A DNA stretch of 57,233 nt. It comes from Spirochaetales bacterium (GTDB taxonomy: Bacteria > Spirochaetota > Spirochaetia > DSM-2461). Under the pieces are notes generated by a model. It was not told the origin of the DNA, did not search any database, and saw nothing but the letters and a program-made list of their open reading frames with translations. The stretch's first letter is position 1; each line of letters opens with the position of its first letter. Shown one piece after another: positions 26,647 through 31,487 of the stretch. The translations under genes and the position numbers were made by a program. Location: the NCBI GenBank assembly GCA_016936555.1, contig JAFGXR010000096.1:1-57233 (forward strand). The letters run 5' to 3'.

Positions 26647-26675
26647 TTGACATTTTACCGAACCGCTAGTATATA
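26647..26675 (+). promoter_or_regulatory. Promoter of the CoA biosynthesis operon
   Basis: TTGACA at 26647-26652 and TATATA at 26670-26675 with a 17-base spacer. Transcription would begin near 26682, leaving an untranslated leader of about 220 bases before the first gene, which contains two structured elements. Confidence 0.75.
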
Positions 26676-26689
26676 TGTGGTAGGAAATC

Positions 26690-26742
26690 CCGGAAGAGAA
26701 GCCGAGCCGTCGGCAGGCTATCTCAGAAAAATCCGGTTTTTT
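26690..26742 (+). terminator. Terminator-like stem-loop in the CoA-operon leader
   Basis: Outer arms CCGG (26690-26693) and CCGG (26733-26736) enclose GAGAAGCC (26696-26703), which pairs with GGCTATCTC (26716-26724) through one bulged A. Six T follow at 26737-26742. An alternative inner pairing GCCG/CGGC is possible. The position, just after the start site and before the genes, fits an attenuator, but outer and inner stems are separated by unpaired bases, so termination strength is uncertain. Confidence 0.5.
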
Positions 26743-26752
26743 CAATAACGCT

Positions 26753-26875
26753 TGAGATGCTTTATCAGCGAAAGATTTGTCACAGGATCAAGGAAGATGG
26801 CGCGGAGTTTACTTCAGTAAATGAGCACCGGCAGACGCGGAGCCTGAGGCAAAGATGAGTTGATCGAGCATCTCA
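26753..26875 (+). ncRNA. Candidate structured leader RNA upstream of the CoA operon
   Basis: TGAGATGCT (26753-26761) and AGCATCTCA (26867-26875) are perfectly complementary over 9 bases and enclose about 105 bases. Inside are a hairpin AGTTTACT / AGTAAAT with a two-base loop (about 26806-26823) and G-rich stretches (GGCGCGG, GACGCGGAGCC). No open frame fits. The architecture, a closing helix just upstream of the ribosome binding site of a biosynthetic operon, is riboswitch-like. I do not recognise it as the known pan motif, which is smaller. Ligand and function are unknown. Confidence 0.45.
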
Positions 26876-26905
26876 CAGGACTTGATCTATAAAAGGACAG
26901 GTACC

Positions 26906-27616
26906 ATGAACAAAACACTCCCCTGCGCCATAGTGGGAGACGGCCGCATGGCCACGCACTTTGCGCGCTACCTCGAACTGAGCGGCATCCCCTGTAAACA
27001 GTGGGCCCGCAAAACAAGCACGGAAGACCCTTCCGTTTTTTTCAAAGAGACAAGAGCCGTATTTCTCCTGATCCGGGACGATGCCATCGCCTCCTTTGTG
27101 GAAGAGAACCCCGAGCTGAAAGAGATGACGCTCATCCATTTCTCCGGCAGCCTCTATCTCGAAGGCATTCCCTCGATCCATCCCCTGATGACATTTTCAA
27201 AAGAGCTCTACAGCCTGGAGAAATACAGAAGCATCCCCTTCATCCATGAAAAGGGAAAGATCTCGCTCCGCGACGTTCTGCCCGAACTGCCGAACCCCGT
27301 TCAGGCCATGGATTTCCGGATGAAATCGCTCTATCACAGCCTCTGCGTTCTCAGCGGAAACTTCACGACCATGCTCTGGCAGAAAGCCTTCAGCGACTTC
27401 GACGAAAAGCTTGAACTCGACGACAGGCTGCTGATCCCCTACATGGAACAGACCTTCGAGAATCTGAAAAGCAACTGGTCAGAAGCTCTGACCGGACCTC
27501 TGGCGCGAAAGGATAAGGCGACAGTGGAGAGAAATCTCCAGGCTCTGGAAGGCGATCTTTATCAGAACGTCTACCGCTCTTTTGCCTCGACGGTTTTTAC
27601 AGGAGGGAACCTATGA
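26906..27616 (+). CDS. Rossmann/DUF2520 dehydrogenase, possible ketopantoate reductase
   Basis: A 236-residue NAD(P)-binding protein. The N-terminal loop PCAIVGDGRMATHFARYLEL is a Rossmann GxGxM motif as in ProC and PanE. The rest, including LIHFSGSLYLEGIPSIHPLM and the helical C-terminal part beginning YHSLCVLSGNFTTMLWQKAF, matches the DUF2520 family. It is the first gene of an operon encoding panB, panC, coaC, coaB, coaX and panD, where ketopantoate reductase is the one pantothenate step without an assigned gene. Filling that step is an inference from position and fold. I chose the ATG at 26906, preceded by AAAGGA; an in-frame ATT-type start upstream is less likely. Confidence 0.75.
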   Translation: MNKTLPCAIVGDGRMATHFARYLELSGIPCKQWARKTSTEDPSVFFKETRAVFLLIRDDAIASFVEENPELKEMTLIHFSGSLYLEGIPSIHPLMTFSKELYSLEKYRSIPFIHEKGKISLRDVLPELPNPVQAMDFRMKSLYHSLCVLSGNFTTMLWQKAFSDFDEKLELDDRLLIPYMEQTFENLKSNWSEALTGPLARKDKATVERNLQALEGDLYQNVYRSFASTVFTGGNL

Positions 27617-28401
27617 CGACGCTCGATTTCAGAAAATACAAAAATGAGAATAAACCCATTTCCATGATCACCTGCTACGACAGCTGGAGTGCGGCGATCA
27701 TAGAGGAATCGGATATAGACTGCATACTGGTGGGAGACAGCCTGGCCATGACCATGCACGGTTACGACAGCACATTGCCCGCCGACACGGATCTGATGGC
27801 TCTGCATACCGCCGCTGTCCGAAGAGGGGCTCCCAACGCCTTTATCGTCGGCGATATGCCTTTCCTCAGTTTCCGCAAAGGACTGGTTCCCGCCATGGAG
27901 ACAGTTGAGAAAATCATGAGAGCCGGCGCCAACGCGGTCAAGCTGGAAGGCTACGGGGGGCACGGAGAGATCATCAGTCACATAGTCGATTCGGGTGTTC
28001 CCGTTATGGGCCATATCGGGCTGACGCCCCAGTCGGTTCACCAGCTCGGCGGCTACAGGGTCCAGGGAAAAAGCGATGAAAAAGCCCGGGAGCTGATGGA
28101 GGAGGCTTCAGCCCTTGAAGAAGCGGGCTGTTTCGCCGTTGTTCTCGAATGCGTTCCCGCTCCCATCGGGCAGGCCATTTCCCGGAAGCTGACTATCCCG
28201 ACCATTGGCATAGGCGCCGGAAAGGGCTGCGACGGACAGGTACTCGTCCTTCAGGACATGCTGGGTCTCAACAATAAATTTCAGCCGAAATTCGTCAGAA
28301 CTTTTATGAAGGGCTTCGATACCATAAAAACGGCCCTCAACGAATACGACAGGACGGTCAAGGACCGCTCCTTCCCCGCAGAAGAGGAGAGTTACAGTTA
28401 A
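27613..28401 (+). CDS. panB: 3-methyl-2-oxobutanoate hydroxymethyltransferase
   Basis: A 262-residue enzyme transferring a hydroxymethyl group from methylene-tetrahydrofolate to ketoisovalerate to give ketopantoate, the first committed pantothenate step. Visible motifs: ISMITCYDSWSAAIIEES, ILVGDSLAMTMHGYDST (metal-binding Asp), FIVGDMPFLSF, ANAVKLEGYGG, and MGHIGLTPQSVHQLGGYRVQ. ECVPAPIGQAISRKLTIPTI and GIGAGKGCDGQVLVLQDMLG complete the barrel. Overlaps the preceding gene by four bases (ATGA) and the next gene by one. Confidence 0.96.
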   Translation: MTTLDFRKYKNENKPISMITCYDSWSAAIIEESDIDCILVGDSLAMTMHGYDSTLPADTDLMALHTAAVRRGAPNAFIVGDMPFLSFRKGLVPAMETVEKIMRAGANAVKLEGYGGHGEIISHIVDSGVPVMGHIGLTPQSVHQLGGYRVQGKSDEKARELMEEASALEEAGCFAVVLECVPAPIGQAISRKLTIPTIGIGAGKGCDGQVLVLQDMLGLNNKFQPKFVRTFMKGFDTIKTALNEYDRTVKDRSFPAEEESYS

Positions 28402-29162
28402 TGAGAATCATCAGATCCATAGAAGAGTGGAGAGAGGAATTCAGGTATTATAAAAGAGAGCGGCGGTCCGTCGGACTTGTTCCCACCATGGGAGCGCTTC
28501 ACGACGCCCATATAAGCCTGGTCAGGACATCGAAGGAGGAAAACGACCTGACGGCTGTTTCCATTTTCGTCAATCCGACCCAGTTCAACAATCCCGACGA
28601 TCTGGCCAACTATCCCCTCACCTGGAACGAAGATGTGGCCAGGCTGGAGGAAGCGGGCGTCGATTATCTTCTCTTTCCCTCCTATGAGGATATGTACCGC
28701 GACGGATATAAATACAAATTGATCGAAACCGATTATTCGCAGGATCTCTGCGGGACCGCCCGGCCGGGACATTTCGACGGGGTACTCACCGTTGTCATGA
28801 AGCTGATCAACATAACCAAGGCGACACGGGCCTATTTCGGAGAGAAAGACTGGCAGCAGTACCGGCTGATCGCCGGGATGGCCGAAGCTTTCTTCCTCGA
28901 TACGGAAATCATCCCCTGCCCCATCGTCCGGGAGGAGAGCGGGCTGGCCATGAGTTCCCGGAACAAAATGCTCACTCCCGAAGAGCTGGAGATCGCCCCG
29001 AACTTCAACAGGATCATCACTTCGGGCAGGAGCCTCGGAGAGATGAGAGAGGAGCTGGAATCCCTGGGGATGAAAGTGGATTACCTGAAAGAAAAGGAAG
29101 GACGGATCTTCGGAGCCGTCTTTCTGGGAAAAGCGAGGTTGATAGACAATGTCCCCCTCTAA
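28401..29162 (+). CDS. panC: Pantothenate synthetase (pantoate--beta-alanine ligase)
   Basis: A 253-residue ligase joining pantoate and beta-alanine with ATP. VPTMGALHDAHISLVRTSKE carries the HxGH-type nucleotide signature, here HDAH, with Ala where most members have Gly. SIFVNPTQFNN, YLLFPSYEDMY, the CGTARPGHFDGVLTVVMKL loop, YFGEKDWQQYRLI and the KMSKS-like SGLAMSSRNKML are present. The protein is about 30 residues shorter than typical at the C-terminus, where the small lid domain is abbreviated. It lies between panB (one-base overlap) and coaC (14-base overlap). Confidence 0.95.
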   Translation: MRIIRSIEEWREEFRYYKRERRSVGLVPTMGALHDAHISLVRTSKEENDLTAVSIFVNPTQFNNPDDLANYPLTWNEDVARLEEAGVDYLLFPSYEDMYRDGYKYKLIETDYSQDLCGTARPGHFDGVLTVVMKLINITKATRAYFGEKDWQQYRLIAGMAEAFFLDTEIIPCPIVREESGLAMSSRNKMLTPEELEIAPNFNRIITSGRSLGEMREELESLGMKVDYLKEKEGRIFGAVFLGKARLIDNVPL

Positions 29163-29688
29163 AAAAATACTTCTGTGCATCAGCGGATCCATTTCCGCCT
29201 ACAAAGCGGCGTCTCTCGCTTCGGCTTTGAAGAAAAAAGGCCATGAAGTCAAAACCGTTGCTACGGAAAGCGCCCTGAAATTCATCGGACCCGCCGCCCT
29301 GGAAGGCATAACAGGGCAGCCGGTTCTCACCGATATGTTTCATCCCGGATACGAGATTCCCCATATCAATCTTCCGGAATGGGCCGATATGATCGTCCTC
29401 TACCCCGCTTCGGCGACGACTCTGGCGAGGCTGAGGACGGGACTGGCGGAGGACCTGCTCTCGGCGGTATTCCTCTCCAACAATTTCCGGAAGCCCTACT
29501 GGATCTGCCCGGCCATGAACATCAATATGCTCGAGCATCCGGCGGTTCAGGAAAACCTGAAGGTTCTGGAGACATGGGGCGCCCGGATCATCGATCCCGA
29601 TGAAGGCGTTCTGGCCTGCGGAACCGTCGGAAAGGGAAGAGCTCCCGATCCGGTCAGGCTGGCCGGACTGATAGAGGAATCCCTATGA
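29149..29688 (+). CDS. coaC: Phosphopantothenoylcysteine decarboxylase (separate CoaC)
   Basis: A 179-residue flavoprotein decarboxylating 4'-phosphopantothenoylcysteine to 4'-phosphopantetheine. KKILLCISGSISAYKAASLA is the FMN-binding start with the family's Ser-Ile-Ser-Ala loop. PAMNINMLEHPAVQ is the substrate-binding PxMNxxM motif and LACGTVGKGRAPDP contains the proton-donating Cys. In most bacteria this domain is fused to the ligase as CoaBC; here the two are separate adjacent genes, as in some streptococci and enterococci. The start overlaps panC by 14 bases and the end overlaps coaB by four. Confidence 0.93.
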   Translation: MSPSKKILLCISGSISAYKAASLASALKKKGHEVKTVATESALKFIGPAALEGITGQPVLTDMFHPGYEIPHINLPEWADMIVLYPASATTLARLRTGLAEDLLSAVFLSNNFRKPYWICPAMNINMLEHPAVQENLKVLETWGARIIDPDEGVLACGTVGKGRAPDPVRLAGLIEESL

Positions 29689-30362
29689 AAGTACTGATTA
29701 CTTCGGGCGGAACCGAGGAGCCGATCGACGGCGTCCGTTACATAACCAATTTCTCCACGGGGAAAACCGGCGCCGCAATAGCCGACAGGCTGACCGAACT
29801 GGGAGCGGAAGTGACCCTCCTGCACGGGAAAAGAGCCTTTCTGCCGGAGAACCCCCTGAAGAAACACAGTTTCACTGACTTCAGAAGCCTCGATGAAAGA
29901 CTTCAGGCGCTGCTGTCGGCGGAAGACTTCGACGCGGTAATCCATCTGGCGGCGGTCAGCGATTTTTCCGTCGATTTCATAGAGACTGAAGAGGGGAAAA
30001 GAATCGTTCCCGATGCCCGGGGAAAAATAAGCTCCGACGGCAAAAGTCTGAACCTGCATCTGAAACGGAACTATAAAATCCTGCAGAAGCTGAAGGATTA
30101 CAATGGCGCAAAAAAGGATTTGCTTGTAGTCGGTTTTAAACTGACCGATACGGACTCGGTCGAGGAAATGGAAAGCGCCGTAAAAAAACAGCTCGAAGAG
30201 GGGCATGTGGATCTGGTGGTGCACAATAATCTGAGAGATATCACCGCGGCAAAACACCCGGCGAGGATATACGTTTCCAACGGCAGCCTGCTTTACAGGA
30301 CCGAAACGAAAGAGGAGCTTGCCGAGAAGCTCTTCCAGCTGATGAAAGAAAAAGGATACTGA
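29685..30362 (+). CDS. coaB: Phosphopantothenate--cysteine ligase (separate CoaB)
   Basis: A 225-residue ligase coupling 4'-phosphopantothenate and cysteine, the step before Coa[21 protein letters not shown] followed by [20 protein letters not shown] is the nucleotide-binding region, [14 protein letters not shown] follows, and the LVVGFKLTD and [12 protein letters not shown] parts form the substrate pocket. It is a standalone domain of about half the size of fused CoaBC. The nucleotide preference (ATP or CTP) cannot be told here. It overlaps coaC by ATGA and ends one base before coaX. Confidence 0.92.
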
Positions 30363-30363
30363 A

Positions 30364-31134
30364 ATGATACTATGTCTCGATGTGGGTAACACCCAGTTAT
30401 ACGGCGGTCTGTTCAAGGAGGATAAAGTCATCTTCCGCTTCAGAAAGGTCATGAACAAGGGGATCTCTTCCGATGAGATCGGCATTTTTCTCCGTTCCGT
30501 CATCAGGGAGAACGGTCTGGACCCTTCCGAAGTCAGCCGCATAGCCTACTGCAGCGTCGTCCCCGACCTGAACCACTCCCTGGAGAACAGCTGCCGCCAC
30601 TACTTCAGCCTGGAGCCCTTTTCGCTGAAACCGGGCGTGAAGACAGGCCTGAAGATTAAATACACCAATCCCGGGGAAGTGGGAGCCGACAGAATCGCCG
30701 ACGCCATCGGCGCCTACACGCTCTTCCCCGGAAAAGATATCATCATAGTCGACTTCGGTACGGCGACGACCATCGAAGTTCTGACAAAAGACAGAGAGTA
30801 CCTGGGAGGGGCTATCGTCCCGGGGATGAAAATAGCCATGCAGGCCCTGGAGGAGAGAACGGCCAAGCTGCCGAAAGTGGAAATCGTCAAACCGACGAAA
30901 GCCTGCGGGCGCTCTACCATCGAAAGCATCCAGTCTGGTCTCTATTTCGGAAATCTCGGTATCATAAAGGAGATAACCAGTATGATTACCAGAGAGAGTT
31001 TCAACGGGGAAAAGCCGATGATTATCGGCACCGGGGGATTCTCGGGGCTCTTCCGCGATTCGGGAGTCTTTGACGAAATCATTCCCGACCTGGTCCTCGA
31101 CGGCATCTACAAAGCACAGGAGTTGAACAAATGA
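30364..31134 (+). CDS. coaX: Type III pantothenate kinase
   Basis: A 256-residue kinase of the ASKHA fold that phosphorylates pantothenate and is not inhibited by CoA, replacing Coa[17 protein letters not shown] is the phosphate-1 loop with the catalytic Asp, [18 protein letters not shown] binds pantothenate, [15 protein letters not shown] is the phosphate-2 loop and [20 protein letters not shown] follows. [12 protein letters not shown] is the adenosine motif. It sits between coaB and panD in a tight operon. Confidence 0.95.
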
Positions 31135-31487
31135 CAATAGAAATGCTCAAAGCAAAATTACATAGAGCTACGGTAACCGATGCGGACCTGAACTACGAAG
31201 GTTCCGTATCGATCGATCCCGCCCTTTACAAGGCGGTCGGAATGATGGAATTCGAAAAAGTCGATATCCTGAACATCAACAACGGCGCCCGCCTGACCAC
31301 CTATATCATCAATGGCAAAGAGGGAGAGGTCTGCCTCAACGGAGCCGCCGCCAGACTGGTCCAGAGAGGAGATAAAGTGATTATCTGTTCCTACTGCGCC
31401 CTGGACTCGGAGGAAGCGAAAGATCACAAGCCGATGGTGGCTCTGCTGGACGAAAAGAACCGTATCATCAAAGAGGGGATCAAGTGA
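31131..31487 (+). CDS. panD: Aspartate 1-decarboxylase proenzyme
   Basis: A 118-residue pyruvoyl enzyme making beta-alanine from aspartate for pantothenate. The self-cleavage site is Gly24-Ser25 in [20 protein letters not shown], generating the pyruvoyl group. Family motifs [40 protein letters not shown] and [10 protein letters not shown] are present. Last gene of the CoA operon; it overlaps coaX by four bases. No terminator is obvious before the next gene's promoter. Confidence 0.95.

Follow-up and report, generated by a model that had tools for sequence, protein, structure and literature searches.

A probable divergent tandem pan-type leader, interrupted by a dispersed structured element, upstream of a spirochaete pantothenate/CoA operon

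The leader RNA of a pantothenate/CoA operon in a Spirochaetales bacterium is best read as a divergent tandem RNA of the pan type. With a probability of roughly 0.7, it controls the whole DUF2520-panB-panC-coaC-coaB-coaX-panD operon by effector-dependent masking of the translation start. The window, that is, the whole stretch of DNA that was analysed, comprises 57,233 nucleotides and is contig C12 of a 4.7-Mb assembly (genome G000 below). The reading relies on two short hairpins at the ends of the leader (26696-26724 and 26878-26905), here denoted pan1 and pan2, between which lies a larger structured domain (26753-26876) that has relatives dispersed over other genomes. An earlier interpretation of this DNA, made from the letters alone (hereafter, the sequence-only reading), had denied any likeness to the short pan motif. 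This view is not supported, as the hairpins at either end of the leader together make up a tandem pan-type element.

The operon and its leader

The genes of the operon, in order, are:

26906-27616, plus strand: DUF2520 protein, first gene of the operon (Pfam PF10728, E 6.6e-16)
27613-28401, plus strand: panB (PF02548)
28401-29162, plus strand: panC (PF02569)
29149-30362, plus strand: coaC (29149-29688) and coaB (29685-30362), two separate genes (PF02441, PF04127)
30364-31134, plus strand: coaX, type III pantothenate kinase (PF03309)
31131-31487, plus strand: panD (PF02261)

The coaBC gene is usually a single fused gene; in the window, coaC and coaB are separate and slightly overlap (29149-30362). 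The DUF2520 gene heads the operon, in the place where a ketopantoate reductase might be expected. Because the same genome also has genes for two PF08546 proteins outside the operon (G000:C104 and G000:C125), the DUF2520 protein need not be its sole ketopantoate reductase.

An untranslated leader of about 220 nt precedes the ATG at 26906. The predicted fold of the 222-nt leader has an energy of -76 kcal/mol (z -4.98), and the stretch 26748-26880 folded alone reaches z -5.05; in each case, none of 200 shuffled sequences folded as well. Thus, the central proposal of the sequence-only reading, a structured untranslated leader of a pantothenate/CoA operon, holds, with a fold well beyond chance. A search of the leader against Rfam matched no known RNA. 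When the leader was compared with 61 genomes by DNA search, only the congener G002 matched it over the entire length, at 78% identity; between the two leaders, 7 of the 62 predicted pairs changed on both sides and none was broken.

26647-26675, plus strand: probable promoter, with TTGACA (26647-26652), a 17-nt spacer and TATATA (26670-26675), identified by eye

Transcription would start at about 26682-26685. Both hexamers are almost intact in G002, which agrees with the promoter proposed previously, but its description as strong is not supported because a promoter consensus scan of the window lists no site at these hexamers. Similarly, the terminator-like hairpin with T6 that was noted near the 5' end is real as a hairpin but doubtful as a terminator. 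An intrinsic terminator at 26690-26742 acting by transcription attenuation would account for the T6 that directly follows the hairpin in the window. However, the T-run is not kept in G002, which has CCGGAATTTAC there, so that a terminator is unlikely; furthermore, the terminator scan lists only a minus-strand site and none on the plus strand, and the hairpin has the pan geometry described below. Attenuation is accordingly a very improbable explanation, which we dropped on account of the unconserved T-run and the missing plus-strand site.

A conserved hairpin at the translation start

26878-26905, plus strand: hairpin pan2, GG-ACUUG-A-UCU(AUAAAA)GGA-CAGGU-A-CC, with bulged A at 26885 and 26903 (fold, class-wide pattern, model R1)
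26893-26897, plus strand: AAGGA, the ribosome-binding site, separated from the ATG by 8 nt and situated within pan2 (loop and inner 3' strand)

The 3' end of pan2 abuts the start codon, and the hairpin encloses the ribosome-binding site. This is the most conserved part of the leader, and it falls outside the interval 26682-26875 to which the element had originally been assigned. In seven genomes of the 61-genome search (G001, G003, G012, G014, G023, G027 and G054), the match was confined to query positions 195-226, roughly the final 30 nt upstream of the ATG, and all seven carry AGGACTTGAT...GGACAGGTACC or nearly so. Written as RNA, the conserved stretch is GG-ACUUG-A-UC..GA-CAGGU-A-CC, in which two single bulged adenosines flank a helix of 5 bp. 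Among 40 aligned pan2 hairpins (alignment A3, which omits L104 with its long loop), the GA of the AAGGA stretch is invariant and the first G is present in at least 90%.

Of 394 genomes of the class, 19 contain the exact pan2 pattern, each a single time, and the reversed pattern used as a control matched nowhere in the same genomes. At all 19 loci, the next recognised gene is either DUF2520 (9 loci) or panB followed by panC (10 loci); the DUF2520 gene is followed by panB wherever the contig reaches that far, the contig of G001 (L047) ending inside DUF2520. A covariance model built from the 19 hairpins (R1) and run on the 394 genomes yielded 38 places at E <= 1e-3, namely, the 19 known ones and 19 new ones. 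Of the 38, 37 adjoin panB, coaX or coaC, as do 18 of the 19 new places, the exception being in a 1.0-Mb genome (G066). The linkage is looser at E 0.001-0.034, where 4 of 11 fetched places adjoin one of these genes, and places above E 0.03 mostly lie outside the checked set. Altogether, there are 22 new linked places, 11 before coaX, 10 before panB and one before coaC, a set that excludes the fetched places with no pan or CoA gene nearby (L103, L108, L112, L113, L114, L116, L117 and L118).

Across 39 distinct pan2 sequences, 98.2% of the cells are paired, and the covariation score exceeds those of all 500 shuffles. The outer pair changes in a compensatory manner (GC in 24 sequences, AU in 15) and one middle pair switches from U-A to C-G; mismatches are found at the third middle pair in two sequences and at the fourth in one. 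The covariation is nevertheless limited because sequence conservation is high, with 5 of the 10 pairs never varying.

A long ORF begins 0-2 nt past pan2 at 12 of the 19 pattern loci. In several relatives, the hairpin lies at least 36 nt upstream of the gene or precedes a short ORF, and therefore direct masking of the start site is not a universal rule. Five coaX leaders of family f25 (L090, L091, L092, L106 and L107) have a five-codon ORF that begins at an ATG abutting pan2, and the coaX match in these leaders begins about 60-206 nt further on; in L090, a terminator-like hairpin is visible by eye between the short ORF and coaX. This arrangement suggests a leader-peptide version of pan control.

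A second hairpin and the tandem arrangement

26696-26724, plus strand: hairpin pan1, GAGA-AGCCG-A-GCC(GUC)GGC-AGGCU-A-UCUC, with bulged A at 26705 and 26720 (score 27, reached by 0 of 100 shuffles)

A second hairpin with the geometry of pan2 was sought with a scoring script in the 200 nt before pan2. In the window, this hairpin has one G.A among its five middle pairs and is extended by an additional outer stem, CCGGA/UCCGG (26690-26694/26732-26736). When the rule asked for a 5-bp middle helix flanked by bulged adenosines, the cut-off was reached in 14 of the 19 leaders, that of the window included, compared with 0-3 of 19 for other bulge letters (C, G, U) or for helices of 3, 4, 6 or 7 bp; the reversed letters gave 1 of 19 and control stretches 3 of 68. 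In a second set of leaders, which had not been used in setting the rule and which was searched over 120 nt with the cut-off lowered from 23 to 22, the hairpin was present in 13 of 22, other geometries in 0-5 of 22, and control matches in 3 of 107. By this strict score, then, both hairpins are present in the window and in 14 of 19 and 13 of 22 leaders. In four of the 19 leaders (L050, L051, L052 and L045, the last from G002), the score of pan1 is no better than chance or below 20; the pan1 of G002 is missed by the scoring rule because two of its middle pairs are non-standard. Among the hairpins reported by the script for the window, there is no third pan hairpin inside the inserted domain.

Relation to the known pan motif

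Weinberg et al. 2010 (PMC2864571) described the pan motif as a mostly tandem stem that contains two conserved bulged adenosines, lies before panB, panC or panD operons and is known from three phyla; a dimeric protein-binding motif was suggested there. The leader analysed here resembles this motif (Rfam RF01749) in its tandem short stems, both of which combine a 5-bp middle helix with a pair of bulged adenosines, in the U.G third pair and the UC/GA inner pairs of stem 2, and in its position, the operon of the window and all 19 pattern loci being of the panB/panC/panD type. The two differ in the letters of the middle helix, ACUUG/CAGGU in the window as opposed to CCUgG/CcGGG in Rfam, whereas the bulged adenosines, the UC/GA inner pairs and the U.G third pair of stem 2 agree with the Rfam consensus. 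Unlike the known motif, pan2 of the window extends over the ribosome-binding site up to the start codon, the linker carries a 124-nt insert, and the Rfam model misses the leader.

Indeed, RF01749, a tandem model of 92 positions with a gathering score of 36.2 bits, finds nothing in the window at E <= 5, and its two weak matches in the same genome lie at places other than the pan leader. It exceeds its cut-off in none of the 19 genomes with the pan2 pattern, although it aligns with both hairpins of one leader (L049) at 29.3 bits, below the cut-off, and scores 26.8 bits against a coaX leader of G012 (L060). Because the gathering score is not reached, we file the leader as a divergent variant and not as a member of RF01749. 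The spirochaete leader with its translation-start arrangement represents a divergent form of a known type; the inserted element may be new. A literature search for pan in spirochaetes or for a pan effector found nothing further, two papers (PMC11487621 and PMC12570885) having been searched by term.

Over the 394 genomes, RF01749 has six matches at E <= 0.01, one of them above the cut-off (G043, 39.9 bits), and in all six genomes the next long ORF reads like an ABC ATPase. In five of these loci (L125-L129), which were fetched further, the order of the ORFs and their N-terminal sequences indicate an ATPase, an EcfT-like protein, an ECF S component and coaX. Pfam was run on all four L125 proteins and on the S components of L125-L129, and NCBIfam on the L125 ATPase and coaX; the S components match the general ECF family and no model that names pantothenate. 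The S component beside coaX is a candidate pantothenate transporter, pantothenate being the probable substrate in view of the neighbouring coaX. The pan regulon of the class thus appears to span pantothenate synthesis, uptake and activation.

Two further Rfam matches deserve mention. A weak RF01749 match of 25.5 bits (L061/L100, G003:C32:8726-8808) forms the hairpin CAG-CCCGT-A-TT..AA-ACGGG-A-CTG, around which tblastn found no pan gene. A T-box leader match of 64.7 bits, below the Rfam cut-off of 93, lies at L044:1788-2056 on the strand opposite to the pan leader of G012.

Proposed mode of control

Under the model we favour, pan1 and pan2, in both of which a 5-bp helix is flanked by two bulged adenosines, would form a paired binding site for an effector. 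This effector would presumably be a protein dimer, direct action of a metabolite being less likely. With the CoA/pantothenate pathway sated, the effector would occupy both hairpins and hold pan2 folded, so that ribosome entry would be blocked; when the pathway is starved, pan2 would open. The fusion of pan2 to the start site predicts such a simple mechanism, translational masking, and a regulon made up of panB, panC and panD, coaX, coaBC and an ECF uptake operon restricts the signal to pantothenate/CoA sufficiency. In its working, although without any claim of homology, pan2 is similar to the MS2-type coat-protein operator of an RNA phage, in which a small bulged-A hairpin overlies both ribosome-binding site and start codon; the MS2 operator, however, is a single hairpin.

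Alternatively, the pan hairpins could themselves be a metabolite riboswitch that binds pantothenate, 4'-phosphopantothenate or CoA directly instead of serving as a protein-binding site. Such direct sensing would fit the composition of the regulon (synthesis, kinase, coaBC and ECF-coaX genes) and the very high sequence conservation of pan2. We nonetheless consider it unlikely given that two very small hairpins leave little space for a binding pocket and that the account of pan in Weinberg et al. (PMC2864571) suggests a dimeric protein-binding motif.

The inserted domain

26753-26876, plus strand: inserted hairpin domain closed by a 9-bp helix, a copy of a dispersed structured element (fold, comparison with G002, models R2 and R3)
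26794-26835, plus strand: core of the dispersed element, GG-C-GC-GGA-GUUUAC(uuca)GUAAAU-GA-GC-A-CC (model R3, 29.7 bits, E 2.5e-5)

The 9-bp helix described in the sequence-only reading, TGAGATGCT/AGCATCTCA, is located at 26753-26761/26868-26876 and encloses about 106 nt with an inner hairpin. Control of the leader by the pathway, which that reading had proposed, is the most likely function, but the domain at 26753-26876 does not appear to be the sensor; it is an inserted dispersed element. A lineage-specific pantothenate/CoA riboswitch in this domain, with the pan hairpins as its expression platform, would agree with its strong fold (z -5.05), the compensatory changes relative to G002, the invariant inner loop and the place of the domain in the leader. 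Yet the insert between pan1 and pan2 is present in G000 and G002 only, the leaders of the congeners G001 and G003 being without it. A domain that two of three examined congeners lack at this place is an unlikely candidate for the conserved sensor. Moreover, the structure recurs at many other places, in up to 20 copies per genome, and no CoA gene was recognised by eye among the listed ORFs neighbouring other copies. A sensor role is therefore improbable, though less so than attenuation, the dispersed copies in particular counting against it.

Instead, a separate, self-contained structured element has probably been inserted into the linker in this lineage. The distance from the 3' bulge of pan1 to pan2 is 158 nt, so that subtracting the 124-nt hairpin leaves a linker of 34 nt, compared with 25-57 nt in the 14 other leaders of the first set with a pan1 score of at least 20. 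As the insert folds as its own closed hairpin, the pan hairpins would stay at roughly their normal separation, and with 34 nt of linker remaining, the insert looks like a tolerated guest, presumably neutral for control, rather than a sensor.

The sequence-only reading had named two observations that would count against it, lack of conservation in relatives and resemblance to a mobile repeat at another place in the genome. The domain is kept in G002 but missing from the leaders of G001 and G003. With regard to a repeat, the domain is single-copy within its own genome, where DNA search yielded only short chance matches and model R3 finds the leader copy only, but it has multi-copy relatives in other genomes of the class. 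The core boxes of integron attC sites are RYYYAAC and GTTRRRY; an attC reading of the insert was rejected because these boxes are absent from all 13 stretches checked.

A dispersed structured element

We consider it somewhat better than an even bet that the insert is a copy of an undescribed dispersed class of structured elements, of about 100 nt or more, with fixed loops and freely varying stems, which is common to spirochaetes and viral contigs and has moved into a vitamin-sensing leader, splitting the tandem pan RNA without destroying it. A pattern for the inner hairpin matched in 13 of the 394 genomes, with tandem copies that show compensatory stems in G080 and one copy in G280; the reversed pattern also matched several genomes, and single matches consequently mean little. 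Of 317 genomes searched with covariance model R2, which was built with the copies of G000 and G002 included, 21 contain copies at E <= 0.1. To avoid circularity, model R3 was built without G000 and G002, from 22 copies of other genomes chosen among the fetched R2 places, tandem copies being mostly represented once. In these 22 copies, 99.4% of the cells are paired and 5 of 8 pairs change on both sides, which was matched by none of 500 shuffles, a pairing count that leans towards structure because the script that picks copies favours pairing.

Model R3 matches the core in the window at the place listed above and the corresponding place in G002 (32.4 bits), and finds nothing else in the window and nothing in the leaders of G001, G003 and G012. 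Run on 23 genomes, it finds copies in 13, including 20 each in G012 and G080 and the single copy in G000. The internal loops of the element are fixed, GGAG/UGAG-A at the apex and others below, and the stems vary by compensatory change, even among the copies of one genome. Judged by the nearest long ORFs only, convergent genes flank several of the copies and co-directional genes flank others.

Outside the leader, the element resembles the REP/BIME palindromes in being a dispersed, intergenic and sometimes tandem palindrome. These palindromes are described as 20-40 bp long (PMC3733652, PMC12306157), however, whereas the element measures about 100 nt or more and combines constant internal loops with stems that vary freely. 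The literature search returned papers on stem-loop and REP sequences, integrons and other subjects, and no account of the element among them. Rfam has no match at the element in the scanned loci (L136, L137, L186, L181 and six viral contigs); with its clear structural signature, the intruding element is a second and possibly more novel object than the leader that hosts it.

The element loci comprise L136, L137 and L168-L187 in spirochaete genomes and L198-L220 in viral contigs. The latter stem from a pattern scan of IMG/VR, in which 23 viral contigs carry the same hairpin, some of them near-identical to each other. Protein neighbours were scanned in seven of the 23: proteins near the hairpin had no match in four, and in the other three (L202, L216 and L218) a phage major capsid gene stands beside the hairpin, which in L202 and L216 is flanked on the opposite side by a head-tail connector gene. 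A PHROGs search of four viral contigs agrees with this neighbour scan. In several of the 23 contigs, the hairpin overlaps mechanically called ORFs.
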